Source of the DNA: Bacteroidales bacterium
GTDB lineage: Bacteria; Bacteroidota; Bacteroidia; Bacteroidales; P3
Direction: 5' to 3'
Length of the DNA stretch: 37,630 bases
Assembly (NCBI GenBank): GCA_017454015.1
Contig: JAFTDW010000013.1
Coordinates: 1 to 37,630 of the forward strand
The position numbers and the translations under genes are program-made. Below the pieces are notes generated by a model. The model was not told the origin of the DNA. It ran no database searches and saw only the letters and a list, made by a program, of their open reading frames with translations. Shown piece after piece: positions 1-37,630 of this stretch; position 1 is the stretch's first letter; the number at the start of each line of letters is the position of its first letter.

Positions 1-365
1 GCAGGAGGGCGACAGGCAATACCAGCCCGCACAAAGGGTCTCGAAGCATTTCACTGTCAGGGACGGAACGCAAGGGACACGCAATGTGGAGGGTGGAGAC
101 AAAAGGGACGGCATGACACTGTACCCCAACCCGACGGCGGGCACGCTGCACATAGAATGCCCCGACGGCGGCCTGGAGGGCGCCAAGGTGAGCCTGTTAT
201 CGACGCTGGGGCACTACGAGAGGGTGCCGCTACGCCGGCGCAGCGACTCTCACATGGAAGCCGACCTCTCGCACCTCGCCGCAGGCATATACTACCTGCA
301 ATTGGCCTCGGCCACAAAGGTGTACACAGAGAAAGTGATCGTGCTAAAGGGCCCGAAATAACTTT
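1..365 (+). repeat. Shared T9SS-tail repeat, copy 1
   Basis: Bases 1-365 match 2420-2784 at 363 of 365 positions. The two differences, 139 (g) vs 2558 (a) and 250 (t) vs 2669 (a), are both synonymous (Ala and Ser codons). The match runs to the window edge, so the true left boundary is unknown. It ends 4 bases after the stop codon. Such near identity between neighbouring genes suggests recent duplication or gene conversion of the sorting tail. Confidence 0.95.
2..361 (+). CDS. 3' end of a T9SS-sorted surface/secreted protein (partial)
   Basis: This is the last ~119 codons of a gene that begins left of the window; the reading frame is open from base 2. The visible protein has the end of an Ig-like/beta-sandwich segment (QEGDRQYQPAQRVSKHFTV). 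A classic type A T9SS C-terminal sorting domain follows: LYPNPTAGTLHI near its start, then LAAGIYYLQL and KVIVLKGPK at the end. In this family the domain directs export across the outer membrane and is removed or used for surface anchoring. The ATG at 86 inside the frame is not the start, because coding similarity to the next gene's tail extends left of it to base 1. The ectodomain, and so the function, is not visible. The tail is almost identical to that of the gene at 459-2780. Confidence 0.85.
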   Translation, partial: QEGDRQYQPAQRVSKHFTVRDGTQGTRNVEGGDKRDGMTLYPNPTAGTLHIECPDGGLEGAKVSLLSTLGHYERVPLRRRSDSHMEADLSHLAAGIYYLQLASATKVYTEKVIVLKGPK

Positions 366-458
366 CCCTCCACGTGTCATTGGAGGTGCCCATTGATTAC
401 AGCACATGCATCTATCGGCAGCAACATTAACACAAAAAAGTGCGAACTTCAAATGTTT

Positions 459-2780
459 ATGAATACAAGGACAAAATTTTTAATATCAGTCTTGTTGTCG
501 TTCATGGCCAGCGGTGCCCTGGGGCAGGACTTCGAGTGGGTCAGGACGTATACTGGTTCAGATCTCCAGAATATGGATTGGCCTGTCAATGATATCAAGG
601 GCTCTTTTGTGGATGCGCAGGGCAACATCTATATAGTTGGCAACATCTCGTCCGACGGCAGCATACTCGGTGTGGATCTGCTTCCGCAGGGGGTCTTCTC
701 AAACCGCCCAAGCTGCAGCGTTGTCGTGGCCAAGATATCGCCCCAAGGGCAGCTGGTGTGGCACAAGGCTATTTATCATTCACTGAAAGATCAGTATGCA
801 CTCTCGCTATGCCGTATGGGCGACACCGCCTTTATGGTAATGCTCATTTTCTGCCCCATGGATTATCGTAGCGGCGAGTATATATATTATCTTGACACAC
901 TGATAACCACGGCCGACACTGGTTTCTTTTTGCCGCAGTTTGCCACCCGTCGAATTGGGGCGGCGAACATGTTTTTGACCTTCGACCTCGACGGGAATGT
1001 CCTTGAACGGCATATTCTCGAAGTTGGGTATAAAGACAGCAGCGGGCAAGATGTTACCTTCCGTATTTCAGATCCGTGTTGTCCGTATATTTTCCCCAAT
1101 CTCGATGCACTGAGTACTACTGGCCTTACCGGCGAGACTTTTGCCGTAGACCACGACGGAAACATCTATGTTGCGCGGCACTCCTTTGATAGAAAAAATA
1201 TCAATGTCACTACCGACAGTTTTTATACAATAAGCTGCAGCGACGGCTCTATCAGCGCTCTGAAGATAATGGTGGACGGGAGGGATTCTCTGGTCTACCC
1301 CCTGACACAGCGGACGCCCCTGTGGAACCAGCAGATACTGAAGTTCGCCCCGCATTTCGACAGCCTGCTGGGCGGGGTGTATTTATATGACACCCCATAT
1401 ATTGATACGACAGTATCGCTTTCGGATATTATCTCAATGGAAGTGGACAGGGATAACAACCTGTATGTTACATTGCAATACTGTGGATTCCCGTCCAAAT
1501 ATACACATGTGGCAAATTCCGACTCGCTGTTTGTTAGATGTGACACTATTGCGGGCTCGGGGTGTGTGGTAGTATACAGCCCTGACCTGCGGCCGACAGA
1601 TGTGATTCAGCCCGCTGTGATAGAGGGTGGTTATGCCCATGCTTTTTTGTGTGGTGGTATAATGGGGCATTCCTGTTATTTTGACTACGAGACGAAATCG
1701 CTATTTGTTTCAGGTGGCGTTGATGGTTTTTGGTCGGGCCTACCTACAATGACGTATAAAGGCGATACGATATATGCCCCAAATGTAGTGTCGGCCTTCT
1801 GGCTCAGGCTGGATATGGATAGTCATAAACTGCTCTCGTATGGTATGACGCGTCAGACACAAGTGGCAAGAGACAACAGGCATGGAATATCGTTTGTGGC
1901 GGCGAAAAACAACAGGGTCTTTTCGGAAATCCGATTCTGGCATTTGCTGTTTGCCGACACCATGCTGACCTCTCCCCACGATGGCATAGCGTTTGCCGTA
2001 TGGGACTACGACGGCCATGAACTGCAGATTGAGAACTACAATATAAGCAGTAGCAGGAACCTTACGAGACAGATACACTTGCTCGACAGCGCTGTGTATC
2101 TCACAGGCACTTTTGTCGAAGACGCCACCTTCGGCTCCATTGTCCAGCGCGTACAACACGGCAGCAGCAAGGCGCACGTGGCGCGGTATGTGGACACGTC
2201 GTTTATGCGCCCTTACGTATGGCACGAGACGCGTGAGCCGCAGACCATAGTGTGGCAACAGGAGCCTGACGTCAGGCTCGCCGACCGCGCCGTGCCGCTC
2301 ACCGCCACAACGACCAGCGGCCTGCCGGTGCGCTATGTAAGCCTAGACCGCGCGGTGGCCTACGTAAGAGGCGACTCGCTGCATTTCGTGGCAGCGGGCA
2401 CGGCAACTGTCACGGCGCTGCAGGAGGGCGACAGGCAATACCAGCCCGCACAAAGGGTCTCGAAGCATTTCACTGTCAGGGACGGAACGCAAGGGACACG
2501 CAATGTGGAGGGTGGAGACAAAAGGGACGGCATGACACTGTACCCCAACCCGACGGCAGGCACGCTGCACATAGAATGCCCCGACGGCGGCCTGGAGGGC
2601 GCCAAGGTGAGCCTGTTATCGACGCTGGGGCACTACGAGAGGGTGCCGCTACGCCGGCGCAGCGACTCACACATGGAAGCCGACCTCTCGCACCTCGCCG
2701 CAGGCATATACTACCTGCAATTGGCCTCGGCCACAAAGGTGTACACAGAGAAAGTGATCGTGCTAAAGGGCCCGAAATAA
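459..2780 (+). CDS. T9SS-sorted surface/secreted protein with beta-propeller-like ectodomain
   Basis: I place the start at ATG 459 (MNTRTKFLISVLL...), which gives a clean signal peptide ending near ASGALGQ and a 773-residue product. The open frame extends upstream only to a TTG at 393, which would bury the signal peptide. Residues ~25-600 contain repeated 'D..GNIYIVGNIS' and 'DRDNNLYVTLQ' blade-like segments resembling SBBP/beta-propeller repeats. Residues ~610-680 look Ig-like (VPLTATTTSGLPVRYVSLD). Residues ~690-773 are a type A T9SS sorting domain. The first ~1.6 kb is visibly AT-richer than the last ~0.6 kb, so the gene looks like a mosaic of a distinct ectodomain and a GC-rich shared tail. 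The ligand or role is unknown; export to the cell surface is inferred from signal peptide plus sorting domain. Confidence 0.88.
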   Translation: MNTRTKFLISVLLSFMASGALGQDFEWVRTYTGSDLQNMDWPVNDIKGSFVDAQGNIYIVGNISSDGSILGVDLLPQGVFSNRPSCSVVVAKISPQGQLVWHKAIYHSLKDQYALSLCRMGDTAFMVMLIFCPMDYRSGEYIYYLDTLITTADTGFFLPQFATRRIGAANMFLTFDLDGNVLERHILEVGYKDSSGQDVTFRISDPCCPYIFPNLDALSTTGLTGETFAVDHDGNIYVARHSFDRKNINVTTDSFYTISCSDGSISALKIMVDGRDSLVYPLTQRTPLWNQQILKFAPHFDSLLGGVYLYDTPYIDTTVSLSDIISMEVDRDNNLYVTLQYCGFPSKYTHVANSDSLFVRCDTIAGSGCVVVYSPDLRPTDVIQPAVIEGGYAHAFLCGGIMGHSCYFDYETKSLFVSGGVDGFWSGLPTMTYKGDTIYAPNVVSAFWLRLDMDSHKLLSYGMTRQTQVARDNRHGISFVAAKNNRVFSEIRFWHLLFADTMLTSPHDGIAFAVWDYDGHELQIENYNISSSRNLTRQIHLLDSAVYLTGTFVEDATFGSIVQRVQHGSSKAHVARYVDTSFMRPYVWHETREPQTIVWQQEPDVRLADRAVPLTATTTSGLPVRYVSLDRAVAYVRGDSLHFVAAGTATVTALQEGDRQYQPAQRVSKHFTVRDGTQGTRNVEGGDKRDGMTLYPNPTAGTLHIECPDGGLEGAKVSLLSTLGHYERVPLRRRSDSHMEADLSHLAAGIYYLQLASATKVYTEKVIVLKGPK

Positions 2781-2784
2781 CTTT
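2420..2784 (+). repeat. Shared T9SS-tail repeat, copy 2
   Basis: Second copy of the 365-bp tail repeat (see 1-365). Immediately after the stop the sequence diverges from copy 1 (cttttctgtc here against ctttccctcc at 362-371), so this copy does not share the downstream flank that copy 1 and the orphan fragment have. Confidence 0.95.
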
Positions 2785-2862
2785 TCTGTCAGCACCTTAT
2801 GATAATCATTAAAAATAATGAATACTAAATTCTTTACCTAATTGTTTTGAACCGATGGTCAT

Positions 2863-2902
2863 GAACTGAGGTCATGTGGCGAGCCTGCGAACTGAGGTCA
2901 TG
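2863..2902 (+). repeat. 14-bp direct repeat pair
   Basis: GAACTGAGGTCATG occurs at 2863-2876 and again at 2889-2902, 26 bp apart start to start. The second copy overlaps the left arm of the inverted repeat that brackets the NYN gene. The function is unknown; it could be a protein-binding pair or a duplicated end of a mobile element. Confidence 0.8.
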
Positions 2903-2916
2903 AGCACCTATGAAAT
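2892..2916 (+). repeat. Left arm of inverted repeat bracketing the NYN gene
   Basis: Bases 2892-2916 are the reverse complement of 4207-4231 at 23 of 25 positions; the shared core is ATGAGCACCTATGAAAT. The two mismatches are a TC/CT swap. Similarity weakens inward into A-runs. The arms enclose 1,340 bp with a single complete gene. No flanking target-site duplication is obvious. Confidence 0.8.
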
Positions 2917-3092
2917 TAAAAACATGACAGCGAATAAAGGGCAAAATCAATTTTAGGTATAGCATTTAGCAATCATGTTAAAAATATATGAATGCATCTT
3001 CTCAAGCAACCATCTTGCAAGTTTGAAAAACAAAGTGATAAAAAATAATTATGCTATATATCAGTATTTTGTAAAAAAAAATCCCCAAATAT

Positions 3093-3123
3093 TTTGCCAA
3101 TCCGGAAAAAAGTTGTACTTTTG
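3093..3123 (+). promoter_or_regulatory. Bacteroidota-type promoter for the NYN gene
   Basis: TTTG at 3093-3096 is followed after 19 bp by TACTTTTG at 3116-3123, matching the established Bacteroidota consensus TTTG-N19-21-TAnnTTTG. Transcription would start around 3130, leaving a ~110-nt leader before the ATG at 3240. The gene therefore has its own promoter inside the bracketed segment. Confidence 0.8.
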
Positions 3124-3239
3124 CATCACGATTATGCTCACGGCCACGTTTGTTCCAGTAGCAGTACCATCAAAATCTGCCCCCTTGATAATGAGCAAGC
3201 CCTCCCGCGAGCTTTTTTTTATACCTATTTTTATACCTA

Positions 3240-3950
3240 ATGGATAAAAAAAGAAAGCATCAGCACCAGCTCCCGCCAACAAAAATCGCTGTCCTTGTTG
3301 ATGGTGGTTTCTTCCTCAAGCGTTTCAATGCCCTCTACAACAAAGACAAAAGCATGTTACCCGGGGATATTGCAGACTCCCTCCACAACTTGGCTCTGCG
3401 CCTAACTGGAAGCAACACCCTCTACCGCATCTTCTACTACGACTGCGAACCACTCAACAAAAAATTCCACAACCCTATAACACACCGCGCAGTTGATTTC
3501 GGCAAGTCTGATGAATACAATTTTCGCCGAGATTTCTTCGATGCACTGCGCCGCAAACGTAAGGTTGCCCTCCGTCTTGGAACACTAAAGGACAATGGTC
3601 ACTGGCTTATTCATCCCGATGCGACAAAACAACTCCTTGCAGGACATAAAACCTTGGAGGACTTGACCGAAAACGACCTATATATGGAAATACGCCAGAA
3701 AGGAATCGACATGAAAATTGGTGTTGATATTGCCTCTCTCGCCCTAAAACGCCTCGTCGACACCATTATCCTTGTTGCCGGTGACGCTGACTTCGTTCCT
3801 GCTGCCAAACTTGCCCGTCGTGAAGGTGTCGACTTCATTCTCCACCCCATGTGCGCCCACATAGACCAGTCTCTCTTCGAACATATCGACGGGCTCAGTT
3901 CAGTCAGACCCCACCTAAAAAACGAAACCGACGAAACCGAAAAACCTTAA
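3240..3950 (+). CDS. NYN (LabA/DUF88-like PIN-fold) domain protein, putative nuclease
   Basis: The 236-residue cytoplasmic protein has no signal peptide. Its acidic motifs are those of NYN domains: VDGGFF at ~20-25 (Asp21), QKGIDMKIGVD at ~153-163 (Asp157, Asp163) and GDADF at ~181-185 (Asp182, Asp184). NYN proteins are PIN-like, metal-dependent RNases. The substrate here cannot be told; roles in RNA turnover or defence are possible. A lysine/histidine-rich N-terminus (KKRKHQHQ) and an acidic C-terminus flank the domain. Codon use is AT-richer (AAA, ATT, TTT) than in the surrounding GC-rich genes. The gene has its own promoter and sits within inverted repeats, next to a stranded T9SS-tail fragment. 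Together these suggest a horizontally acquired or mobile accessory gene. Confidence 0.85.
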   Translation: MDKKRKHQHQLPPTKIAVLVDGGFFLKRFNALYNKDKSMLPGDIADSLHNLALRLTGSNTLYRIFYYDCEPLNKKFHNPITHRAVDFGKSDEYNFRRDFFDALRRKRKVALRLGTLKDNGHWLIHPDATKQLLAGHKTLEDLTENDLYMEIRQKGIDMKIGVDIASLALKRLVDTIILVAGDADFVPAAKLARREGVDFILHPMCAHIDQSLFEHIDGLSSVRPHLKNETDETEKP

Positions 3951-3965
3951 CGCGTACCTTTAATG

Positions 3966-4079
3966 CTCTCGCACCTCGCCGCAGGCATATACTACCTGCA
4001 ATTGGCCTCGGCCACAAAGGTGTACACAGAGAAAGTGATCGTGCTAAAGGGCCCGAAATAACTTTCCCTCCACGTGTCA
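3966..4079 (+). pseudogene. Orphan fragment of the shared T9SS tail
   Basis: These 114 bases are identical to 266-379. They comprise the last ~31 codons of the sorting domain (from LSHLAAGIYY to KGPK), the TAA stop, and 18 bases of downstream flank. No gene body precedes the fragment: its natural frame is not joined to a start, and the NYN gene's stop lies 16 bp upstream. It is a remnant left by recombination or deletion. Because it carries the flank of copy 1 and not of copy 2, it derives from a copy-1-like locus. Confidence 0.92.
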
Positions 4080-4159
4080 CAGGCATTTGTTTGAACACAA
4101 ATTGCATTAAGGTGGGTCCTATTTTTTCATTGAGAGCGCACATTCTCCGCTACGCTATC

Positions 4160-4178
4160 GAAATGCCACTGGCATTTC
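4160..4178 (+). repeat. Short perfect hairpin
   Basis: GAAATGCC at 4160-4167 pairs with GGCATTTC at 4171-4178 around a 3-base loop. Only two T follow, so it is a weak terminator candidate for the NYN transcript. Confidence 0.5.
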
Positions 4179-4206
4179 TTCACTCCGAGACGCATATCGT
4201 TTTTTT

Positions 4207-4231
4207 ATTTCATAGGTGCTCATAGCCTCAG
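4207..4231 (-). repeat. Right arm of inverted repeat bracketing the NYN gene
   Basis: Reverse complement of 2892-2916 at 23 of 25 positions. Its outer edge runs directly into an AGCAATTGAGAG plus hairpin element (4230-4264) that recurs at 26134-26163. Confidence 0.8.
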
Positions 4232-4264
4232 CAATTGAGAGTTAGCCTCTCCGAGGCTATTTTT
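4230..4264 (+). terminator. Hairpin with T-run, part of a repeated element
   Basis: TAGCCTC (4243-4249), loop TCC, GAGGCTA (4253-4259) and five T (4260-4264) form a good intrinsic terminator, probably closing the NYN transcript. It is preceded by AGCAATTGAGAG (4230-4241). The same arrangement, with different but complementary stem bases, recurs at 26134-26163. Confidence 0.7.
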
Positions 4265-4276
4265 AGAGGTCACCCT

Positions 4277-4310
4277 AATTGAACCGTTAATTTTTGTTAA
4301 CGGTTCAATT
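4277..4310 (+). repeat. Perfect 14-bp inverted repeat
   Basis: AATTGAACCGTTAA at 4277-4290 and its exact complement TTAACGGTTCAATT at 4297-4310 are separated by TTTTTG. No T-run follows on the plus strand, so it is not a standard terminator. It may be a cruciform, an operator or a small element end. Confidence 0.75.
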
Positions 4311-4423
4311 ACATGATAATTAACGTTTTGTACCTCGATGCGCTAAAATATAATTTTGAGCACAAATTGCACGTTTTTTACCACGTATCACACGTGTCGC
4401 AGGTAAGTAGGTAGCCTGATTAG

Positions 4424-4457
4424 AATCGCTACGCAGACCCGTGCGGAGCGATTTTTT
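4424..4457 (+). terminator. Intrinsic terminator upstream of the giant gene
   Basis: AATCGCT (4424-4430) pairs with AGCGATT (4447-4453), with a further inner CGCA/TGCG pairing, followed by a run of T to 4457. It insulates the giant gene from transcription entering from the left. Confidence 0.75.
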
Positions 4458-4487
4458 CTGCCGTCTCGTTTTTTTTGTGTATATTTG
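4457..4487 (+). promoter_or_regulatory. Probable promoter of the giant surface-protein gene
   Basis: TATATTTG at 4480-4487 fits the -7 element TAnnTTTG exactly. TCTG at 4457-4460 lies 19 bp upstream and matches 3 of 4 bases of the -33 element. The leader to ATG 4578 would be ~85 nt. Confidence 0.6.
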
Positions 4488-4577
4488 CAAATCCGTATAT
4501 TATGCTTTTTATACATATAAAAGGCGTGATATGTGGTGGTATGTAATTGATATAGAATAAAAAAGAGAATTTATTAT

Positions 4578-7500
4578 ATGAAGAAGTTATTTGCATTGAC
4601 AGGCTTTGTTTTGGCGTTATTGTCGGTGGCTCACGGACAGATTACGACAAAGTATCAACAAAGTTTTGAGAGCAGTGGCGAAACGTATGGTTACAGTGTG
4701 GGCAGCGGCGATGTGCAGCCGATAGACCTCAGCAGCGCGCCCAGCGGCAACCGTGTGCTCTTTATGCATCACACGAGTACCGATGCCGTTACTATACTCG
4801 ACACCATCGACTTTACCGAGAACAGCAGCTACAGCTACTTCGTGCTCTCTTTCATGCATGTGAGCACAGCCAACCCTCTCGACTGCCGTTTGGCGAGTGA
4901 GGTGGGTTTGGTGGAGGTGAAGCGCCCGAGCCAGTCCGACAACGACTGGGTGCTGCTGACGAGCAGCTACTACGACCGCACATGGGGCGGCGGTTCGAGC
5001 GACTACGCCGGTACAGGCTCTTTCTCGAACAGAAGCTACCCCGTGTGGTCCACCGAAGGCGCCACCACCACAGGCTGGAAAGGCGAACGCTTCAACCTCA
5101 ACAACCTGTTTCAGGGCGTTCAACTCACCGACAAGAAACTCCTTGTGCGCTTCACGCTGAAAGCAAAATCTTCTTCAGGCACTACCGACAACGGCTGGAT
5201 GATTGACGGTATCACTGTCAAGGCGAGCCCCATGAGCATGGTGTCGCCTATTCTCAGCATGGTGAGCTACCCCGACCTCATTGACTACCCCACGAGCCGC
5301 AGCACCCGCATAGAAGGCCGCGCCACCACTACGGTGCAGCAGGGCCTCGACCCCGACAGCATGTACATAGAATACCACTATGGCGCCAACGGTGACGTGC
5401 GCCGCGTGGCTTTCGCCGCAGTGCAGGGCAGCAACAACCTCTTCAGAGGCTACATACCTTTCTGCGGTTACGACACCATGGTCTACTACCGCGTGGTGGT
5501 GAAGGATGCCACCACCAACGCCAACTCGGTGTCGTACCCCTTTGCCGAAGGCGCGTGGGAACGCTACCGCAGTGTGCGCTTCGGACCCGCCGACGCCCCG
5601 TGGTACAAGGGTGGGCAAGGTATAAGGGGAGGCACAGTGCTCGAAGTGCCTCTCGCAACAGCCAACACGGCAAACCGTAACAAAGTGCCGTTCCCCACTA
5701 CTCCGGAGTGCGGCGGCGACAACCGTACGCAGATGATTTACGACTCGGCAATGATGGCAAGCGCAGGCTACGGCCCCGGGGCTATCACGGCTATCTCGTT
5801 CCTCTCCGCCTCTACAGTAAGCAATCAGCGCCTTGACAGGTTCCAGATTAAGATGCGCAATCTGAATGGCAACGAGCGCGGCAGCTCGACATTCTACGGC
5901 GACAGCATGAAAGTGGTCTACGACGGACAATACACTCTCAGCGCAAGCAACGGCTCGTGGACTACCATAACGTTGCAGGACACGTTCTTCTATGCAGGCC
6001 ACAACCTGCTGATAGTGACAACTACCGACATGGTGTCCAGCAATCCGCCGGCAGTGTCGTTGCAGAGCGTGGCAACGGAGATTGATATGCAGAGCCTCTA
6101 TGTGGGTTTCGACGCCAGCTACTTATTCAGCCCGTTCGACCCCGGCTATGCCCAGTATTTCGGCCCTTCGGCTATGCCCAGTACGGAGCCCTACCAGCCC
6201 AATTTCCGCTTCAAGGCTCATGCCAACCTGCCACTGATGCATGACTGCGGAGTGAGCGGCTTTGTGACACCCAACGACTCCACCTCCGCCAACGCCCTTT
6301 CGTCGAACAACGTGATAGTAACCCTCAAGAACTACGGCGCCTCGCCGATAAGCAGTGTGAGGCTGTGGTATAGTGTTGACACGGGAGCGGCACGCTACTA
6401 TGACTGGAGCGGCACCCTCGCGGCAGGTGCCACAACCAATGTGACACTGTACACCAACCAGACCTATAGCCCAGGCTACCATGAGATTATGGCGTGGGTC
6501 GACGACTCGGTGACAAGCAACGGCATGCTCTACCGCGACCACGAACCCCTCAACGACACACTGAAGACCCATTTCATAGCCTGCGCCGGCGCTTTCAACG
6601 GTCAGCGGCAGGTGGGTGGCGCAGGTGCCGACTATGCCACGCTGGAGAACATGCTCTACGCACTGCGCGAGTGCGGCGTGAACGGCTCGCTCACCGTCAA
6701 ACTCTCCCCGGGCACCTACCAAGTGTGTGAGTTCCCGACGATAGCAGGCCTCTCCAATGCCAACTACATACAGTTTGAGCCGCTCAACGGTCAGCCCGGC
6801 TCGGTGCGGTTTGTGCTTAACAGCAACGCCCAGTCGCTCCTCGACGTGCAGAGAGTGTCGCATATCCGCTTCAAGAACATAACGTTTGTCAAACCCAACG
6901 ACACATACACCGCCACCTACATGGTGTGTATGAGCCGCAACAGCCAGGATATGCGGTTCGACGGTTGCCGCTTTATCGACAGCTCGGCATCCAGGGCGAC
7001 GGCTCTGACAGCTCTTATCCATTCGGGCGGCGCCGACAATATGCGTGTCACCAACTGCTACTTCTACCAAGGCAGCACGGGCATCAGCCTTGTGGGACCG
7101 TCGAGCCAGAACCCCGCAGCGAGCAACTACGTTTACGGCTCCACCTTCGAGAACCAGGTGTCGTGTGCCATGCAGGTGCGCAACCAGTACAATGCCATTG
7201 TCGACAGCAACATGCTGAACGATGTGCAGGACAACTCGAGCTACCTGATATTGTTGCAGGACTGCTCCGGCGCACAGCTGCGCATAACCCGCAACCGCAT
7301 GTACTCCACCAACGGCGCAGGCTGTCTCGGTGTCTCTGGCGTGCAGGGCATGATGTCGGGCTCCGCAGTGGTGGCCAACAACATGATAGTGTGCGATGAC
7401 AACGGCCGCGGCAATGTGCTTACCACTCCGTTCAACATCATCTCGGCACAGTATGTCAAGATTGTATATAACTCGGTGAAACTCATGGCACCGTCGCGTT

Positions 7501-10500
7501 CGGGCATAGCTGCCACGTCGTTTGGCGGCGCGCAGGTGAACCACTGCGACTTCTACAACAACATCATATCATGCTACGACACGCGCAACTACGCTTTCAA
7601 CTATACTCCCAACACCGCAAGCGGAGCCACCAACAACGTGGGCTACAACATCTACTACAGCAAGAGCAGCACCATGAACCGCTACAGCGGCACGAGCTGC
7701 CCCACCCTTGCCGACTGGCGCATATATCTGCGCAGCGACGCCTACTCGCTGAGCGGCGACCCGCACTTCCTTTGCGGCACTCCCACCGACCTGCGCTCCT
7801 ACAACACCATAGTGAAGAACAACGGCACCCCGGTCAGCGGGGTGACCACCGACCTCTTTGGCACGCCACGCAGTGCCACCACGCCGTGTATCGGCGCCTT
7901 TGAGTTTGTGGCGTTGAGCTATGACTTTGAGGTGACTCGGCTGCTGAGCCCCGACACCGACTACTGCGACGTGCCGTCGTCGGCGCCTCTGCGCTTTGTG
8001 CTGCGCAACAGCGGCAGCCAGCGTTTCGACCCCGCCACGGACTCGCTCAAGGTCTACTATTCCCGCAACCAGTGCGGCACCCTCTCGACCACCAACTCCG
8101 GCACAATAAGAATACAGCGCCCCATACCTGCCAACGACACCATCATAGTCACGGCTCCCAACTCGGTGCAGTTCCCAACCAACGGCACCTACGACAGCAC
8201 CTATATATTTTATATATGGACATCGACGACCATAGACCCCAACGAGGCCAACGACACAAGTGCCTATAGAGTGGCGGCTCACTACCGCGAGCCTACTCCC
8301 ACTGCCATAACGCAGTCCGTGAACTATGGCACCAGTGCAACCATCAACGTCACGGGCGGCATTACCACGTGGTACCCCAATATCTATACCAGCGGGCGCA
8401 GCACGCCCTCCACGGTGTACTGGTACACCACGCCCACCTCGACCACACCGTTCTACAGAGGCAATACCTATACCACCCCGGTGTTGTATGACGACACCAC
8501 ATTCTATATAAGGCAGAAGCGCGACCTCGCACTGATAAGGATTGCCGAGGTGCAGATGAGTCGCTCTGGCATCGGCGTCACGTCGCCAATGCCTTCGTGG
8601 ATGGGTAACAATGTCAATGTGGCTGTTGAGCTTATCAATGCCGGCGACTATCCCGCCGACTTGGCAGGCGACACGTTGCAGATGCGTATAGGCGCTTCGA
8701 ACGACTACAAGGTGCTGCCCCATGTTGTGATACAGCCCGGGCGCAGCGTGGTGCTGCAATATGTTGCCAACCTAAACACTCCGGACTCCCTTCTCACCTT
8801 TGGCGTGGGGGCACCGAGCAGCGGACTGGGTACTATCAACGCCAACGCAGCCCTTGGCGTGATGTATCGCGACGGCAGCGGCATAGCCGATGCCGTGGTG
8901 TTCAACAGCGTCAACGCCCAGTCGTGGGGTATCCCCGTCACTGTGTGGAGCGGCACTGGCGTGCCTACGCTTAACACCGGCTGCGCCGGCGCATACCGCA
9001 AAGGCTACCCCTCCAACTCTTCGGCCACCCCCTCCAACTCCGCACAGTATTGGCAGGTGGCCGATGGCTCGCACCCAATGACCCTCGGCACCTCCAACAC
9101 CAACCTTGTACGCTTTACCGACAACGGCTGCGAGGGCGGCATGTCCACGGTGCGCATCAACATCACCAACCGTCCTACTGTCGACCTCGCCGTCGACTCC
9201 CTTGTGCTCCCCTCGGGCTGCGGTCTCGGCAGCGAGGTGATAAGCGTCAATGTCACCAACTACGGTATACTGACCAGCGCCCCCTATGTGATGCGTTTCT
9301 CGGTCAACGGCACCCAGGTGGCTAACGAGAATGTGTCGACAGGCGTGCCCAGAGGTGCCACGGTGCGCCACACCTTTGCCACACCTGCCAACCTGTCGGC
9401 CCCTTCGAGCGACATGAACTATGTGGTGCGCGTGTGGGTTGACCACCTCAGCGACGACTACGATATTTCCAACGACACCGTCTCCGCCACCACCAACTCC
9501 GACTATACGCCCGTGCTGCCCAACGTGACATCGCCACAGAGTGTCACCTACGGACAGTCGTTAGTGCTGACTCCTTCGGGCACGGTGCGCGACACTATGG
9601 TGTGGTACGACCACAACCATAACATGATAGATACAACAGTGAGCTACAACACCGGCTACCTCTATGCCACCGACACCTTCTACGTGGGCGGCATAGCGGC
9701 GTCGCAACGATACATACAGGTGGGTACTCTCGCCACCGTGGCCAGCTATACCGACAACTCGTCGCCGTTATATGTGAAACAGAAATACGGCCGCGGCCAG
9801 TACCTGTACACTGCCGCCGAGTTGCAGGCCGCAGGCCACTCGGCAGGCCCTATCAAGTCCATCGCGTTCTATGTGGAGGCAGTGACACTGGGTGGCGGCA
9901 GCATAACCTTCGACGACTACAGCATCTCGCTGGGCGCCGCGCCGGCGGCTATCACCACCTTCCCGTCGGCCAATGCATGGACCACCTACAGCCTGAGGGA
10001 GTACTACCACAGCAGTAACTTCACTGTGTCGCCTTCCGATGCCGGCAATTGGAAACGCATAGAGTTTGCCGAGCCATACATGTGGGACGGCGTGTCGAAC
10101 ATTATCGTGCAGGTATGCCGCACCCTCAACACTCCCAATACCACTGCCAACCAGGGTATCACGACGCGTTACACATCGGCCACCAATACAGTGCTTGTGG
10201 CAGTGAACACGCAAAACGACCTCTGCGGCGGCTCGAGCAATGTCAACCCAGGCCGTCAGGTCAAGCGCCCCGACATGCAGTTTGGATTTATCGACTACGG
10301 ATGCGTGGGACCGCTCAAGGAGGTGGTGGTCAATGTCAGTGCCGCCCCCAGCGACGACGGTAACCTCGAATGGCCCGACGGCAGCGACACCGCTGTGTAC
10401 ACATCGTGCGGCAATACCAATATCGATGTGAAGCTCACCAACAGCGGCACCAGCCCCATAACATCCTATAATATCAACTACTGGATTGACGGTGTGCAGC

Positions 10501-13500
10501 AGAACACCTACCAGGGCACCGGCGTCAATTTGGCCAGCAGGCAGAGCCAGACCGTGCGCCTTGCTTCGCAGCAGTTCTCCCCGGGCCGCCACACCATCAA
10601 GGCTATCCTCTCGGTGCCCGGCGACCGCATGGCGCGCAACGACACCGTGGAGCGTACCATAAGGGTGCGCTTCTGCGCAGGCTCCTACACCATAGGCGCC
10701 ACGGGTCGCTACGCCAACTTCACCACGGCTATCGACACCCTCAACAATGCCGGCGTGGCAGGCCTTGTGGCTTTCAATGTGCAGCCCGGCACATACGAGG
10801 AGCAGATACAGCTCGGTCCGGTGGTGGGCATGAGCTCCACCAACCAGGTGGTGTTCCGCTCCTCCTCGCGCGACAGCACCGCGGTGGTGCTGAGCTATGC
10901 ACCCTCCGCCGTCACGTCCAACTACGTGATGCTGCTCGACGGCGCCTCCTACTACACTTTTGAGGGCATCACCTTCTACAGCCATTGCGCCGCCACGGCC
11001 CCCGGCAACCTCTACAGCAATGTCATAAGCTTGGAGAACTCCAACAACATAACGTTCCGCCGCAACCTTGTCAAGGTGCGCAGCAACCTCTATTTCCAAG
11101 GTGCCAACGCACTGCAGCAGGTCAACGCCTGCGGCATGGTGATTGGCGACGGCGTCAACAACGTCACCATAGAGAACAACACCTTCGACAGCGCCTACTA
11201 CGGCATACGCGGTGTGCAGCTCATGGCCGGCGGCACAAGCAATATATCCATAACCGACAATGCCATAATCAACTTCTGGGTCATGGGTGTGCAGCTGCGC
11301 AAGGTCTCCGGAGTCACGGTGACAGGCAACACCGTAACCTCGGGTTGCTCCGTCAACGGCAAGCCGCTCCACGGCCTTTACATCGCCGAGCACAACGGCA
11401 GGCTCGACATCACGAACAACCGCATCTCCCTCGTCGACAACTTCAGTGGCGGCAAACGCGCCGTGTACCTCTCCAACTGTCAGGGCAATGCCAACCTGCG
11501 CAGCCGTATCTACAACAACATGTTGTCGGTCTCAAGCACCGGTGTGGCCTCTCTTGTGAGCAGCTGCCTCTGGGTTGACAGCAGCACCAATATCAACGTG
11601 CTGTTCAACTCCACCTACCTCTACGCAGGCCCCGTGGCCAACACCACACGTACCATCAGCGTGGCCAACACCTGCAGCGATTTTCAGGTGATCAACAACA
11701 TCTTCTCCAACTTCAGCTGCGGCTACAGCTACTATGTGCAGAGCGCCGCCAGCGTGACCACCTCCAACTACAACAACTACTATTCGAGCAGCCCCACCTC
11801 CGGCACCGGCAAGTATGCCTATTGGGGAGCCGAATGCACCTCCATCGCCGCACTGCGCACTGCCAACAGCCAGGACGCCAACTCGCACGACATACGCCCC
11901 TATTATGTCAACGACTACGACCTGCACCTTGCCGTGGGTAGTTTCGTGGAGCTGGGACAGTACAACGGCGAAGTGCAGTACGACATTGACGGCAACGTGC
12001 GTCCGCAGATTCCAGGGCCTACCATCGGCGCCCATGAGGTCGCCCTCACCTTGCACGACCTCATCTTCCTTGAGGTCAACGAGCCATACCTCCCGACCAA
12101 CATACGCCTGCCTATACATATTGAGAGCGACTCGGTGCGCGTCATAGCCAAGATTTACAACAACGGTACCTCCGTCGAGAACAACGTGCAGTGGTACGGC
12201 GAAGTGGTGGGCTGTTCCTCGTGCCGCTCGGCAACCCGCACCATTAGCCAGATACCGGCCTCGAACTACCGCTGGGACACTCTCATGATACCCACCATCC
12301 TCGGTGTCATGGATACGCAGATGGTGCGCCTGCACCTCGCCATGGACACGCATGATATAACCTTCGACACCCTTATCTATCTTGCCCCGGCATACAACCT
12401 GCACGCACTGACAACCACGGTGACCGGTGGTTGCTACCTCACCGCGGCGCCAGTACAGATGACGGTTAAGAACGAGGGTAAGAAAACACTTGCAGCAGGC
12501 ACCACGGTGACGCTGGGCTATGAGGCAATACTTGTAAACCCGCCGTCAGTCACCGTCACCAACCTCCCACTGACACATACCGAGCAGTACACTCTCCAGC
12601 AGCCTATATTGGTCGACGGCACCGACGTCTTGACTTTCGCCACACCGGCGGATATATACCCCCACGGCGTGGATCAAGACATAGTGGTCAGAATGCGTAC
12701 ATGGATCTCCTACCAGTACGACATCCACCCCGAGAACGACACTACCAACATGAGCGGCAACATCAACTCCTTCTACACCCCGCAAGCCCCGCAGGTCAGC
12801 GACATGACCATACCCTACGGTACTTGGGATACCATCCACGCTACACAGGCCAACAACTTGTCCATCATGTGGTTCCGCGATACTACGCAGCCTCCATTCT
12901 TCACCCACAACAACTACCTCCGTTCCTGGTGGTGGGTTACTCCGATGTTGTTGGCAGACTCCACCTACTACCTTGCCTCGCGTAGCGTCCGCAACTGCAC
13001 CAGCGCCTTCTCGCCCGTCACGGTACGTATTGCTGCCTCCGTGGCCTACGACGCCGCAGTCGACTCGGTGGTCTCGCCAACCGACAGGGTCTATATGTAC
13101 GACGACACGGTGAAGGTCAGCATCATCAACTTCGGTACGCAGGCCTTCTCCAACATACCGGTAACCTACCAGTTGAGCCGTGCCGGCAGCGGCATCCCGT
13201 TGCAGACCGTCACCGAGGTATGCAATGCCACCGTCCAGCCGGGCTCCTCAGTTGTATACACCTTCGACTCGCTCATACAGATACCAATGATAGGGCAGGC
13301 CTACTCCATAAAGGCCTGGACCGACTTGCCGGCCGAGATGACACCCATGAACGACACCATGATGTTCGACTACACCTTCACTGCGCTCGCGCAAACCGCC
13401 TACTGCGCCCCGACAATAGCGCACAACGAAGGCCTCGACATAACACACTTCAGCTACGGCAGCGTCGACAACAGTATCCGCGCCGCCGGATACAAGTATG

Positions 13501-16367
13501 TCAACTTCGGCGACATTGACTACCTCGACCCGGGAGTGCCAGTGATACGCGTCTCCCGAGGCTTCACCGACACTCTCACCGTGGAGTGCGAGGACAGCGA
13601 GAGCTCGTCCAACGACACCACGCGCGGCTACCTTACCGTCTTTGTCGACTACAACCGCGACGGCCAGTTTGACAACTCCGAAATTGTCACGCAAACGCGC
13701 ATGACGGCACACCACAAATACCAATACATCTACACAATACCCAACAACGCCTTCTTCGGCTACATGCGTATGCGCCTTGTGCTGCAGGAGCGCGGCTCCT
13801 CGGCCGACAACGGCTGCGCCACCTTCGGCTACGGCCACGTGCAGGACTACCTCCTCTACGTTGAGGGCAATCCCAAACCCTACGACCTCGCCATTGGCCG
13901 TATCGTGGCTCCGCGCACCGACATCCTCACCACCGACACCCACGCCGTCTCCTTCATGCTTATCAACAACGGCAGCCAGCCTGTCACCTCCGCTACCATC
14001 AACTTCAAGTACGTCGACAACGACCCGAGCCTCAGCGACTTCGGCCAGAAACAGTGGCAAGGCAACCTCGCACCTGGCACGAGCACTATGGTCACCCTCG
14101 ACCCGCATGTCTTTGACCAAGGCACCACGGACCTCTGCATCTACCTCGCCGACAGCACCGACGCCAACCACGACAACGACTCCACATGGTGGCAGTTCCA
14201 CCTCTTCGAGACAATAACCCTTGCACTCAACGACAAGTTTGAGGGTCGCGACCTCTGGTATGCCCCGCGCGGCTACAACCGCTACACCGAGAACTACTGG
14301 CAGCGCGGCCGCCCAACAAAAACAGGCATCAACGCGCCCTACAGCGGCGACAATGTCTGGGCAACACTACTCGACAGCCCCATAACTCCGGGAAGCTTGG
14401 GCAACATCAGCGTGCTCTATTCCCCTGTTATCGACATCTCACAGATACGCCCCGACACCATCTCCTTCTACCTCAAACGCGTCATGGGCGACGGCTCCGC
14501 GCTCACTGTGGAGTACCTCAACTACACAGGCCTGTGGGAGACCCTCGGCTCAAGTCAGGATACCATGTGGTACACCAGCAACGAAGGCTTCCACGGCAAC
14601 GCCAACAGCTCGCGCTACGTGCGCTACTGCCTCTCCACGACGACCTACTCCTTCCCCGCACGTATGCAGATACGCCTTGTCTTCCGCTCCGAAATCGACG
14701 CCGTGGCGTGCGCCGGCGTCGCTATCGACGACTTCAAGATAGGACGTGCCCGCCGCGCCGTCGACGCAGGCATCACCGCCATCACACAGCCTCTCCGCAC
14801 TCAGCTCGGACAGTCGGTCAACCCACGCGTGGCAATACACAACTACGGCTATGACACCCTCCACTCCGTGACCGTCAGGTACACCCATTACGGAGCCAAC
14901 ATCCCCAAGGAGGGCACCTGGACCGGCAACCTCGCGCCCGACGCCACAGTGCTCTACACTGTCCCCGCGGCGTTCACCATCACCAGCGACTTCCCCGACA
15001 CCTTCTCCATCTGCGCCTTCACATGGTTGAGCGCCGACATATACTATGACAACGACTCCACTTGCAAGAACTTTGTCCTTAGCCCGCTGGAAGACGATAT
15101 GAACATGATGACTTTTGTCTCGCCCAACGACAGAGTTGTCGGCGGCGACTCCATCACCGTCACCGTGCGTCTGCGTAACTTCGGCCAGAACGACATAGCG
15201 AGTACCTCTGTCACCTACGTCTTCAACGGCGGCCGCCCCGTCACCGAGAATATCGACTTCAACTCCGTGCTCGGACGTCCTCTCTCATCTATGGAGACGT
15301 TCAACTACACCTTCCGCAAACGCGCCAAGAGCTCCATGGGCTCCATGAGCATCACGGCCTACTGCGTGGCACCCAACGACGTCTACGCGGCCAACGACAC
15401 CATAACAAAGCGCATCAACGGTATAGGCTCCATCACCGACCTCAAGGCTCAGGAAATAGTGACCGAGCTCACGGGCGGACGCACACGCGTGGAGCTTGTC
15501 ATTGCCAACACCGGCGCACGCGCGGCCAACGACTTCATTGTGGGCTACTACTACAACGACGACCCGACCAACGCGGTAATAGAGACCTACCACCACGACG
15601 ACCCGCTGGCAGCTCTCACCAACGGCTACCATGTCTTCGCAACAGAGATACCGTCTGCCGCAAGCACCCCGATAACAGCTTTTGTGCATATCGACAACGA
15701 CAACGACAACACCAACGACACAACCAGCAACATCGTTGCCCCCTATGTCGACATCCGTGCCATCAAGCTGCAGATAGAGGAAAACAGGGGCGACAACTGC
15801 CGCACCCGCTTCGTCATAGAGAACGTTGGCAACTACGTGTGCAAGAGAACTATCAACATGAGCACCACCATCAACGGCACCTCCCTCTCGGCCACCACCA
15901 CCGTGGGAAGCCGCACACGCAGCATTGAGCCCGGACGCGTCTACCACATCGACATCTCCGGCTACGTGTCCAAGAACCCGTCGCGCTCCTACGTCGGCGT
16001 GGGCTCCATCAGGGCTGTCTCCGGCGACCCCAACAACGACAACGACCAGACCAACATCATCGAGATAGTCAACTATTTTGAGGACATACCGGTTGTGCCA
16101 GATGCCGACGACCTCGTCCTTGAACAGAACTATCCCAACCCCTTCGACAACACCACACGCATCGACTTCAGCATCCCCGAGGCCTCGCAGGTGCGCTTCT
16201 TCGTCATCGACGCCACAGGACGCATGGTGTACCAGAAAGAGCAGCACTACGACGCAGGCCAGCACAGCATAGACTTCTCCAATACAACACTCCCGGCAGG
16301 TATCTACTACTACGGCATAGAGTGCGACGGAAAACGTCTCATGCGCAAGATGGTCTATGCTCGATGA
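4578..16367 (+). CDS. Giant (3,929 aa) multidomain T9SS surface protein
   Basis: A signal peptide (MKKLFALTGFVLALLSVAHGQ) is followed by a jelly-roll/lectin-like domain (~20-215). Parallel beta-helix regions span ~685-1110 (GVNGSLTVKLSPGTYQ, many N-rich coils) and ~2044-2480 (second copy, GLVAFNVQPGTYEEQ). A lamin-tail-like domain lies at ~1317-1475. A GEVED-type domain lies at ~2975-3097 (FVDYNRDGQFDNSE, DYLLYVEG). A second jelly-roll-like domain is at ~3220-3390. At least eight CARDB-like beta-sandwich modules of the form 'YDLAV..I..P.....V...V.N.G' link these. Residues ~3838-3929 are a type A T9SS sorting domain (LEQNYPNPFDNTTRI ... AGIYYYGIECDGKRLMRKMVYAR). It is probably an extended cell-surface adhesin or glycan-binding protein; no catalytic motif is recognised. 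Its stop overlaps the tilS start. Large opposite-strand open frames here are composition shadows. Confidence 0.93.
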   Translation: MKKLFALTGFVLALLSVAHGQITTKYQQSFESSGETYGYSVGSGDVQPIDLSSAPSGNRVLFMHHTSTDAVTILDTIDFTENSSYSYFVLSFMHVSTANPLDCRLASEVGLVEVKRPSQSDNDWVLLTSSYYDRTWGGGSSDYAGTGSFSNRSYPVWSTEGATTTGWKGERFNLNNLFQGVQLTDKKLLVRFTLKAKSSSGTTDNGWMIDGITVKASPMSMVSPILSMVSYPDLIDYPTSRSTRIEGRATTTVQQGLDPDSMYIEYHYGANGDVRRVAFAAVQGSNNLFRGYIPFCGYDTMVYYRVVVKDATTNANSVSYPFAEGAWERYRSVRFGPADAPWYKGGQGIRGGTVLEVPLATANTANRNKVPFPTTPECGGDNRTQMIYDSAMMASAGYGPGAITAISFLSASTVSNQRLDRFQIKMRNLNGNERGSSTFYGDSMKVVYDGQYTLSASNGSWTTITLQDTFFYAGHNLLIVTTTDMVSSNPPAVSLQSVATEIDMQSLYVGFDASYLFSPFDPGYAQYFGPSAMPSTEPYQPNFRFKAHANLPLMHDCGVSGFVTPNDSTSANALSSNNVIVTLKNYGASPISSVRLWYSVDTGAARYYDWSGTLAAGATTNVTLYTNQTYSPGYHEIMAWVDDSVTSNGMLYRDHEPLNDTLKTHFIACAGAFNGQRQVGGAGADYATLENMLYALRECGVNGSLTVKLSPGTYQVCEFPTIAGLSNANYIQFEPLNGQPGSVRFVLNSNAQSLLDVQRVSHIRFKNITFVKPNDTYTATYMVCMSRNSQDMRFDGCRFIDSSASRATALTALIHSGGADNMRVTNCYFYQGSTGISLVGPSSQNPAASNYVYGSTFENQVSCAMQVRNQYNAIVDSNMLNDVQDNSSYLILLQDCSGAQLRITRNRMYSTNGAGCLGVSGVQGMMSGSAVVANNMIVCDDNGRGNVLTTPFNIISAQYVKIVYNSVKLMAPSRSGIAATSFGGAQVNHCDFYNNIISCYDTRNYAFNYTPNTASGATNNVGYNIYYSKSSTMNRYSGTSCPTLADWRIYLRSDAYSLSGDPHFLCGTPTDLRSYNTIVKNNGTPVSGVTTDLFGTPRSATTPCIGAFEFVALSYDFEVTRLLSPDTDYCDVPSSAPLRFVLRNSGSQRFDPATDSLKVYYSRNQCGTLSTTNSGTIRIQRPIPANDTIIVTAPNSVQFPTNGTYDSTYIFYIWTSTTIDPNEANDTSAYRVAAHYREPTPTAITQSVNYGTSATINVTGGITTWYPNIYTSGRSTPSTVYWYTTPTSTTPFYRGNTYTTPVLYDDTTFYIRQKRDLALIRIAEVQMSRSGIGVTSPMPSWMGNNVNVAVELINAGDYPADLAGDTLQMRIGASNDYKVLPHVVIQPGRSVVLQYVANLNTPDSLLTFGVGAPSSGLGTINANAALGVMYRDGSGIADAVVFNSVNAQSWGIPVTVWSGTGVPTLNTGCAGAYRKGYPSNSSATPSNSAQYWQVADGSHPMTLGTSNTNLVRFTDNGCEGGMSTVRINITNRPTVDLAVDSLVLPSGCGLGSEVISVNVTNYGILTSAPYVMRFSVNGTQVANENVSTGVPRGATVRHTFATPANLSAPSSDMNYVVRVWVDHLSDDYDISNDTVSATTNSDYTPVLPNVTSPQSVTYGQSLVLTPSGTVRDTMVWYDHNHNMIDTTVSYNTGYLYATDTFYVGGIAASQRYIQVGTLATVASYTDNSSPLYVKQKYGRGQYLYTAAELQAAGHSAGPIKSIAFYVEAVTLGGGSITFDDYSISLGAAPAAITTFPSANAWTTYSLREYYHSSNFTVSPSDAGNWKRIEFAEPYMWDGVSNIIVQVCRTLNTPNTTANQGITTRYTSATNTVLVAVNTQNDLCGGSSNVNPGRQVKRPDMQFGFIDYGCVGPLKEVVVNVSAAPSDDGNLEWPDGSDTAVYTSCGNTNIDVKLTNSGTSPITSYNINYWIDGVQQNTYQGTGVNLASRQSQTVRLASQQFSPGRHTIKAILSVPGDRMARNDTVERTIRVRFCAGSYTIGATGRYANFTTAIDTLNNAGVAGLVAFNVQPGTYEEQIQLGPVVGMSSTNQVVFRSSSRDSTAVVLSYAPSAVTSNYVMLLDGASYYTFEGITFYSHCAATAPGNLYSNVISLENSNNITFRRNLVKVRSNLYFQGANALQQVNACGMVIGDGVNNVTIENNTFDSAYYGIRGVQLMAGGTSNISITDNAIINFWVMGVQLRKVSGVTVTGNTVTSGCSVNGKPLHGLYIAEHNGRLDITNNRISLVDNFSGGKRAVYLSNCQGNANLRSRIYNNMLSVSSTGVASLVSSCLWVDSSTNINVLFNSTYLYAGPVANTTRTISVANTCSDFQVINNIFSNFSCGYSYYVQSAASVTTSNYNNYYSSSPTSGTGKYAYWGAECTSIAALRTANSQDANSHDIRPYYVNDYDLHLAVGSFVELGQYNGEVQYDIDGNVRPQIPGPTIGAHEVALTLHDLIFLEVNEPYLPTNIRLPIHIESDSVRVIAKIYNNGTSVENNVQWYGEVVGCSSCRSATRTISQIPASNYRWDTLMIPTILGVMDTQMVRLHLAMDTHDITFDTLIYLAPAYNLHALTTTVTGGCYLTAAPVQMTVKNEGKKTLAAGTTVTLGYEAILVNPPSVTVTNLPLTHTEQYTLQQPILVDGTDVLTFATPADIYPHGVDQDIVVRMRTWISYQYDIHPENDTTNMSGNINSFYTPQAPQVSDMTIPYGTWDTIHATQANNLSIMWFRDTTQPPFFTHNNYLRSWWWVTPMLLADSTYYLASRSVRNCTSAFSPVTVRIAASVAYDAAVDSVVSPTDRVYMYDDTVKVSIINFGTQAFSNIPVTYQLSRAGSGIPLQTVTEVCNATVQPGSSVVYTFDSLIQIPMIGQAYSIKAWTDLPAEMTPMNDTMMFDYTFTALAQTAYCAPTIAHNEGLDITHFSYGSVDNSIRAAGYKYVNFGDIDYLDPGVPVIRVSRGFTDTLTVECEDSESSSNDTTRGYLTVFVDYNRDGQFDNSEIVTQTRMTAHHKYQYIYTIPNNAFFGYMRMRLVLQERGSSADNGCATFGYGHVQDYLLYVEGNPKPYDLAIGRIVAPRTDILTTDTHAVSFMLINNGSQPVTSATINFKYVDNDPSLSDFGQKQWQGNLAPGTSTMVTLDPHVFDQGTTDLCIYLADSTDANHDNDSTWWQFHLFETITLALNDKFEGRDLWYAPRGYNRYTENYWQRGRPTKTGINAPYSGDNVWATLLDSPITPGSLGNISVLYSPVIDISQIRPDTISFYLKRVMGDGSALTVEYLNYTGLWETLGSSQDTMWYTSNEGFHGNANSSRYVRYCLSTTTYSFPARMQIRLVFRSEIDAVACAGVAIDDFKIGRARRAVDAGITAITQPLRTQLGQSVNPRVAIHNYGYDTLHSVTVRYTHYGANIPKEGTWTGNLAPDATVLYTVPAAFTITSDFPDTFSICAFTWLSADIYYDNDSTCKNFVLSPLEDDMNMMTFVSPNDRVVGGDSITVTVRLRNFGQNDIASTSVTYVFNGGRPVTENIDFNSVLGRPLSSMETFNYTFRKRAKSSMGSMSITAYCVAPNDVYAANDTITKRINGIGSITDLKAQEIVTELTGGRTRVELVIANTGARAANDFIVGYYYNDDPTNAVIETYHHDDPLAALTNGYHVFATEIPSAASTPITAFVHIDNDNDNTNDTTSNIVAPYVDIRAIKLQIEENRGDNCRTRFVIENVGNYVCKRTINMSTTINGTSLSATTTVGSRTRSIEPGRVYHIDISGYVSKNPSRSYVGVGSIRAVSGDPNNDNDQTNIIEIVNYFEDIPVVPDADDLVLEQNYPNPFDNTTRIDFSIPEASQVRFFVIDATGRMVYQKEQHYDAGQHSIDFSNTTLPAGIYYYGIECDGKRLMRKMVYAR

Positions 16368-37500: not shown

Positions 37501-37630
37501 TCGTTTTCTGGCTGCGGCAGTGTAAGCAAGCTTCCACTGCTCTTGCCGAACGAAAACGTTGGTTTCTTCGCAACCCTCGTTTTCTGGCTGCGGCAGTGTA
37601 AGCAAGCTTCCACTGCTCTTGCCGAACGAA
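37501..37630. repeat. Two copies of a 54-bp palindromic repeat (array running off the window)
   Basis: Bases 37501-37554 and 37577-37630 are identical over 54 bp with a 76-bp period. The second copy is cut by the window edge, so the repeat may be longer. Each copy is an imperfect palindrome: TCGTT...AACGA at the ends and GCAGTG...CACTGC inside. The 22-bp spacer holds a small GGTT/AACC hairpin. No cas genes are in view. Confidence 0.85.

Follow-up and report, generated by a model that had tools for sequence, protein, structure and literature searches.

What makes two adjacent surface-protein genes end in virtually the same DNA, and leaves a third piece of that DNA standing alone downstream? 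The question is raised by the first 4,079 positions of a 37,630-nucleotide stretch from a Bacteroidales bacterium (hereafter the window), which is one entire contig (C47) of a 63-contig assembly of 2.3 Mb. The two genes, gene 1 and gene 2, encode predicted cargo of the type IX secretion system (T9SS), and a gene for an NYN-domain protein lies between gene 2 and the lone piece, the orphan tail (table 1). We consider it probable that this region is the downstream end of an array of T9SS surface-protein genes, and that such arrays are cassettes exchanged by homologous recombination.

The 3′ ends of genes 1 and 2 form a direct repeat in which 2 of 365 positions differ (139/2558, GCG-GCA; 250/2669, TCT-TCA), both third codon positions and synonymous, as the original prediction had read from the letters alone. 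The predicted 114-bp repeat was confirmed as well: positions 266–379 and 3966–4079 are identical and co-oriented, 3,700 bp apart, with different flanking bases on either side. Judged from their length, repeats of such identity are not due to chance. A search of the 2.3-Mb assembly with the tail DNA (E ≤ 0.001) returned the three places in the window, a 95-bp overlap at the end of contig C2 and one weak match of 32 bp. The tails of genes 1 and 2 matched the T9SS type A sorting domain TIGR04183 at 38.4 and 36.4 bits (curated cut-off 23) and the Pfam T9SS sorting domain at 39.8 and 36.6 bits (cut-off 27), and the genome encodes a PorU sortase (NF033707, 920.9 bits, cut-off 420; C63:5386–8667). 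By these matches genes 1 and 2 are T9SS type A cargo and predicted surface proteins. The NYN domain was confirmed at 37.4 bits (cut-off 24.2).

The window starts inside gene 1, the body of which lies on C2. The end of C2 overlaps window positions 1–95 exactly, and the only other full match to this sequence, at 2420, is already continuous within C47; the join between C2 and C47 rests on these 95 bp. C2 carries 684 residues of gene 1, which align with residues 7–687 of gene 2 at 83% amino acid identity, over nearly all of the known length of gene 1. The neighbour of gene 2 is therefore a paralogue and not, as had been supposed, an unrelated ectodomain on the same tail. Gene 2 as a whole does have the predicted AT-richer body (GC 0.515 versus 0.607 in the tail), although its segment 1971–2419 stands at 0.601. 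BLAST nucleotide homology of the pair starts at 476, within the signal peptide, and the identity of the tails stops 4 nt past the stop codon. Promoters and 3′ flanks are unrelated, and homology is limited to the coding region.

Within that region the pair is a mosaic, with conserved ends and a variable part between them. The blocks around the variable block V1 are 89–97% identical in amino acids, and fourfold-degenerate sites differ at 6/211 in segments A, B and C together, whereas 27/53 differ in V1. Within the set, V1 of gene 1 is matched best by V1 of gene 2 and vice versa (57%), slightly above the genes of genome G011 (51–52%), whereas segments B and C are 91–94% identical within the pair and 38–61% identical to the G011 genes. 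V1 thus has an older history than the segments around it, through replacement of V1 itself or through homogenisation of those segments. The changes in segment B are mostly nonsynonymous and clustered, which fits selection for change without proving it. They also prompted us to consider retroelement-type diversification of this segment, a candidate we rejected: besides gene 1, positions 470–2420 found just 18–37-bp matches in the assembly (E 0.09–0.6) and no template repeat.

Relatives of gene 2 were found (E ≤ 1e-6) in 65 of 99 genomes of the genus, its own included, a few weak matches among them possibly being tail only, and many of these genomes carry several copies in a row. The sources of named records include yak and water buffalo rumen, goat omasum and reticulum, sheep colon and rectum, and red deer. 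We took 103 relative regions, one genome per species, and compared bodies and tails in 111 complete genes of 51 genomes; bodies were at least 80% identical in 57 pairs, and 55 of these pairs, falling into 14 groups, were cross-species. Fourfold divergence was greater in the tail than in the body in 43 of the 55, significantly (P < 0.01) in 24, while the significant reverse occurred in none. Near-identical ectodomain bodies stand in different species with different signal-peptide heads and T9SS tails. Some relatives share bodies at 91–99% identity with tails at 31–77%; examples are G003/G064 (body 98% in amino acids, head 25%, tail 60%) and G045/G093 (body 92%, tail 31%). In an earlier set of 57 genes, the nearest tail was in the own genome and the nearest body elsewhere in 10/51 testable genes, and the reverse was seen in 0/51. 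Family paralogues with similar heads and tails occur in G003 and other genomes.

Identity profiles switch sharply, once at the signal peptide and once at the tail, beyond which a gene matches its own-genome neighbour. In a gene of G053, positions −180 to +60 are 83–90% identical to the own neighbour and 38–43% to the other species; from 60 to 2,460 the other species matches at 75–100% and the own neighbour at 0–63%; from 2,460 to 2,640 the own neighbour returns at 85–97%, with the other species at 45–78%. The gyrB proteins of the species pairs concerned are 79–97% identical. The body was less diverged than gyrB at fourfold sites in 24/24 pairs with bodies at least 85% identical, a result favoured by the selection of pairs on body identity. 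A gyrB identity of 80% beside bodies of 93–97%, as in G045/G070 (gyrB 80% in amino acids, body 93%, tail 75%), points to transfer.

Where cross-species tracts begin and end was mapped on 108 tracts of at least 300 bp and at least 92% identity in 70 species pairs. Heads or tails of family genes, zones making up 11.8% of the sequence, received 66 of 150 distinct endpoints (30-bp bins; P = 5e-23, to be taken as an effect size because endpoints are not independent). With tail-bearing genes included and heads and tails counted apart, the heads of family or tail-bearing genes received 37/150 endpoints versus 8.6 expected (enrichment 4.28) and the tails 36/150 versus 12.0 (2.99). Other open reading frames (ORFs), used as a control, had 15 at starts versus 10.6 expected (1.41) and 10 at ends versus 17.8 (0.56). 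Endpoints peaked 0–120 nt past the start codon and at most 60 nt from the stop. Among individually mapped pairs, 11 tracts of 27 begin 37–69 nt past the start codon, at or beside a motif of the ...AQ|HFDWVK type, and the tract ends are spread between a point shortly upstream of the tail domain and the stop codon itself. We also noticed a 1.3-kb block, about 98% identical in four species, at the edge of surface-gene arrays (L072:10689–11989, also L079, L163 and L104).

The orphan tail of the window has 18 nt of 3′ flank in common with gene 1, while the base before it already differs from that of gene 1 and no longer match was reported there. This border is as would be expected for one-sided homology-facilitated joining, and 3966–4079 fits a displaced tail end behind a cargo gene; homology-facilitated illegitimate recombination has been proposed in Vibrio cholerae (PMC5361080). 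The NYN gene was rejected as a conserved array partner, since at E ≤ 1e-10 none of the 97 other genomes of the genus has a relative and it occurs only in its own (1/98). On either side of it, the intergenic stretches 2847–2976 and 4094–4298 are part of a genome-wide dispersed repeat: querying the assembly with 2781–4500 produced 149 matches, almost all of them involving the two stretches, with tandem units of 46–47 bp at some places (C41, C42).

Orphan tails recur in relatives. In a first scan of 100 loci in 51 genomes, 13 genomes yielded 21 tail fragments that lie outside called genes; a recount left 16 orphan tails in 10/51 genomes. The 3′ end is kept to within 10 nt in 12 of the 16, and 15 are without the first 90 of the last 200 nt; length and left border vary. 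The genes upstream encode NYN (in the window), Fic, ParE, AAA_14-DUF4143 or other ATPases, and proteins without a Pfam match, and some of these cargo genes match PADLOC candidate models. G003 and G059 (gyrB 80% in amino acids) have in common a 1,988-bp block at 97.8% identity that carries the toxin–antitoxin pair AbiEi/AbiEii. Its start lies within the final 67 nt of a tail of G003 (an orphan in G059), its end some 95 bp into the following surface gene. For a second block (647 bp, 96%) the start is within the final 68 nt of a different G003 tail; the counterpart of that tail in G059 is the orphan behind Fic. In this species pair the orphan tails are the edges of shared DNA, which was probably transferred. 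Orphan heads before cargo genes were also considered and rejected: the 46 head-like places were mostly other family genes, cut genes or the tail of the preceding gene, with no clear pattern.

For gene 2, AlphaFold2 (21 sequences) gave an all-beta model with a mean pLDDT (predicted local distance difference test) of 80.1 and a pTM (predicted template modelling score) of 0.72. The best match among solved structures was CylK (E 2.7e-10, TM-score 0.40 by query length), followed by BT4663 and PL24 lyases, all of which we take to contain beta-propellers. The family may bind at the cell surface. A sequence-based search of solved structures was discarded, its single match being a lipase over the tail region (E 0.49).

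We propose that arrays of T9SS-exported, beta-propeller-like surface-protein genes serve as recombination platforms. The homology arms would be two parts that are similar among copies: the 3′ T9SS tail, and a short 5′ head made up of the signal peptide with the motif that follows and, in some species, the promoter as well. Recombination at these arms would swap the ectodomain between them, the donor being a neighbouring copy or another species. Alternatively, an unrelated cargo gene may be inserted between a tail and the next head, and one-sided events would leave a displaced tail end. Genes 1 and 2 would then be two copies alike in tail and framework and different in V1, the NYN gene a cargo insertion and 3966–4079 a displaced tail end. 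The likely agents are RecA-type homologous recombination and homology-facilitated illegitimate recombination. The scheme further supposes a route of arrival for donor DNA, an insertion history of this kind for the NYN gene, and, as the driving force of the exchange, selection for variety in the exposed surface.

Several observations weigh against this proposal. The tract set leaves out the window, whose genes have a closest relative only 52% identical and none close enough for a cross-species tract, and the named records of relatives are metagenome-assembled genomes or uncultured assemblies. In 12 of the 55 cross-species pairs the tail is no more diverged than the body. A tree test of concerted evolution, set aside in the end, shows no separation of tail and body by genome (label changes: 43 in bodies, 40 in tails). 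Low fourfold divergence of the tail (Fisher, P < 1e-4) was found in 364/1,068 between-genome pairs as well as in 28/49 within genomes; being common between genomes too, it is not specific as a test by itself, and we discarded it as a sign of exchange. Five of the 21 first-called orphans were dropped because their frame was open into a gene or they were cut by the edge of a stretch. The remaining orphans are weakly nearer to the preceding same-strand ORF than random intergenic spots (7/16 within 60 bp, 3.7 expected, P = 0.055; looser set 7/21, P = 0.27). As markers directly behind cargo genes they are at most weak (P = 0.04–0.11 over three distances in the recount, 0.27–0.28 in the looser set).

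Without any exchange, the copies of an ordinary tandem duplication might have diverged while purifying selection on the export signal kept their tails alike. This would account for the alignment of gene 1 with gene 2 over nearly all its known length, which the original prediction had named, as a sign of simple duplication, in the first half of its own refuting condition. Selection on the protein, however, should not keep fourfold sites as similar as they are in segments A, B and C while V1 differs at half of them, the flanks of the two genes are unrelated, and relatives combine near-identical bodies with dissimilar tails. The pair, a mosaic with unrelated flanks, is not a simple tandem duplication, and we regard this explanation as unlikely. 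Metagenome pieces might also have been joined or binned wrongly at shared repeats, so that the tail copies, or the two sides of the C2 join, are not true neighbours. The shortness of the C2 overlap is in keeping with such an artefact, as are several family genes of relatives that run into contig ends and the common 114–141-bp ends of G011 contigs. It is nevertheless very unlikely, given that a single contig contains all three tail copies, each with its own flanks, that identity outside the tract is 0.14–0.63 at the switches in relatives, which leaves no long shared repeat for misjoining, and that several of these switches are on contigs of 74–213 kb.

Gene 2 and the NYN gene could instead be an integrated element with 114-bp attachment-like repeats, released as a 3.7-kb circle by a dedicated recombinase. 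Perfect co-oriented repeats do enclose the two genes, gene 1 would keep an intact 3′ end, and orphan tail ends occur in other genomes too. The Pfam hits of the four window proteins, however, include no integrase, invertase or other recombinase (the whole genome was not searched for one), and a fixed attachment core would not show the differences in length and left border found among orphans. Gene 2 and the NYN gene could be lost through recombination between the 114-bp copies, as with any such repeat; ordinary recombination would suffice for this loss, which is not evidence for a programmed circle. We judge such an element highly improbable, and the releasable circle of the original prediction found no support. 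Its core, a displayed part that varies while the export signal stays, holds for the gene family in relatives, where tail and body histories differ, breakpoints fall at heads and tails and orphans recur. The prediction is partly supported, being wrong on the unrelated neighbour and on the circle.

Clustered T9SS cargo genes with near-identical tails are also known from the KLIKK proteases of Tannerella forsythia, which have different catalytic domains; the authors suggest that shared sequences (signal peptide, N- and C-terminal) were joined to the protease genes by fusion, and find the identical tails unusual and in need of explanation (PMC4404884). That work is a static comparison of six proteases, whereas here a single beta-propeller-like family shows cross-species exchange, mapped breakpoints, orphans and non-secreted cargo. 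Domain scans here matched no protease domain, the M36 model matching only in the shared part of the tail and far under its cut-off, and the gene tail ends in KGPK, not KLIKK.

The products of babA, babB and babC of Helicobacter pylori are outer-membrane adhesins and, to our knowledge, carry no T9SS tails. Like the genes studied here, they are paralogues with conserved ends and a variable middle: the N end is homologous, the C end more than 90% identical, and gene conversion is placed in the 5′ and 3′ regions (PMC4552749). Chimeras are described there among clinical isolates, whereas ours are between paralogues and species only. In the type VI secretion system (T6SS) effector arrays of V. cholerae, incoming modules displace part of a gene and remnants stay downstream (PMC5361080), and orphan modules of Rhs and contact-dependent inhibition (CDI) systems are likewise displaced remnants (PMC3967940, PMC4927057). 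Displaced 3′ remnants of array genes are what the 16 orphans are here. Those systems keep the 5′ end constant and retain immunity genes or toxin tails, whereas the remnant here is the end of a constant export tail without an evident coding role. Kgp, RgpA and HagA of Porphyromonas gingivalis are T9SS surface proteins with a conserved C-terminal domain that undergo domain rearrangement and allelic exchange (PMC5266723). There the variation is in adhesin domains and among strains of a single species; in the family studied here entire ectodomains pass from species to species, with heads and tails left in place. The accessible literature on T9SS recombination and Bacteroidetes surface variation, including the available text of PMC5266723 and PMC5808330 (most subscription papers lie outside this scope), does not appear to describe such exchange in these organisms.

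More tentatively, and with the balance tipped slightly against it, the T9SS tail and signal-peptide head may be a general pair of recombination anchors. Ruminant-gut Bacteroidales would then possess a platform that resembles an integron but works without an integrase, and that reshuffles surface ectodomains and defence-like cargo (AbiE, Fic, ParE, AAA_14-DUF4143 ATPases, NYN) among species; the orphans would record past exchanges. Exchange at shared heads and tails would explain the near-identical export tails of some T9SS cargo within one genome, the point left open for the KLIKK proteases, and would let gut Bacteroidales alter their surface proteins, even between species, with no dedicated enzyme. 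Orphan tails would then offer a sequence signature for counting such events in other T9SS bacteria.

Table 1. Features of the repeat locus and of a related cargo pair (window positions unless a locus is named).
Feature	Position	Strand	Description
Gene 1, 3′ end	1..361	+	T9SS sorting tail, stop 359–361; body on contig C2
365-bp direct repeat, copy 1	1..365	+	
365-bp direct repeat, copy 2	2420..2784	+	gene 2 T9SS tail through stop codon plus 4 nt
114-bp direct repeat, copy 1	266..379	+	last 96 nt of gene 1 including stop, plus 18 nt
Gene 2	453..2780	+	T9SS cargo, 775 aa from ATG 453 (mechanical ORF from TTG 393); predicted all-beta, beta-propeller-like body
Segment A	468..704	+	common to gene 1; 70/79 residues identical
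Variable block V1	705..1301	+	114/195 residues identical to gene 1 (58% aa); fourfold sites 27/53 different
Segment B	1302..1850	+	171/182 residues identical; codon differences 2 synonymous, 11 nonsynonymous
Variable block V2 (small)	1851..1970	+	32/40 identical; one indel inside, another at 3′ edge
Segment C	1971..2419	+	upstream of tail; 176/181 residues identical, counted over 1971–2522
NYN-domain gene	3240..3950	+	236 aa; between gene 2 and orphan tail
Orphan tail end	3966..4079	+	identical to 266–379; 15 nt open frame upstream; 15 bp past NYN stop
AbiEi/AbiEii-like pair	L075:5118–6756, L253:3619–5257		beside surface-protein genes in two species; inside the 97.8% block

Elsewhere in the window, a 3,929-residue gene (4578–16367) has a T9SS-type tail, the DNA of which is not among the matches of the gene 1 tail. 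Positions 22261–24646 hold 10–11 tandem copies of a 207-bp unit (69 codons), mostly 60–85% alike. A second dispersed repeat, hairpin-like by eye, lies at the contig end (37501–37630), with a 54-bp unit repeated exactly at 37501 and 37577; the last 200 bp match 48 places in the genome, including itself.

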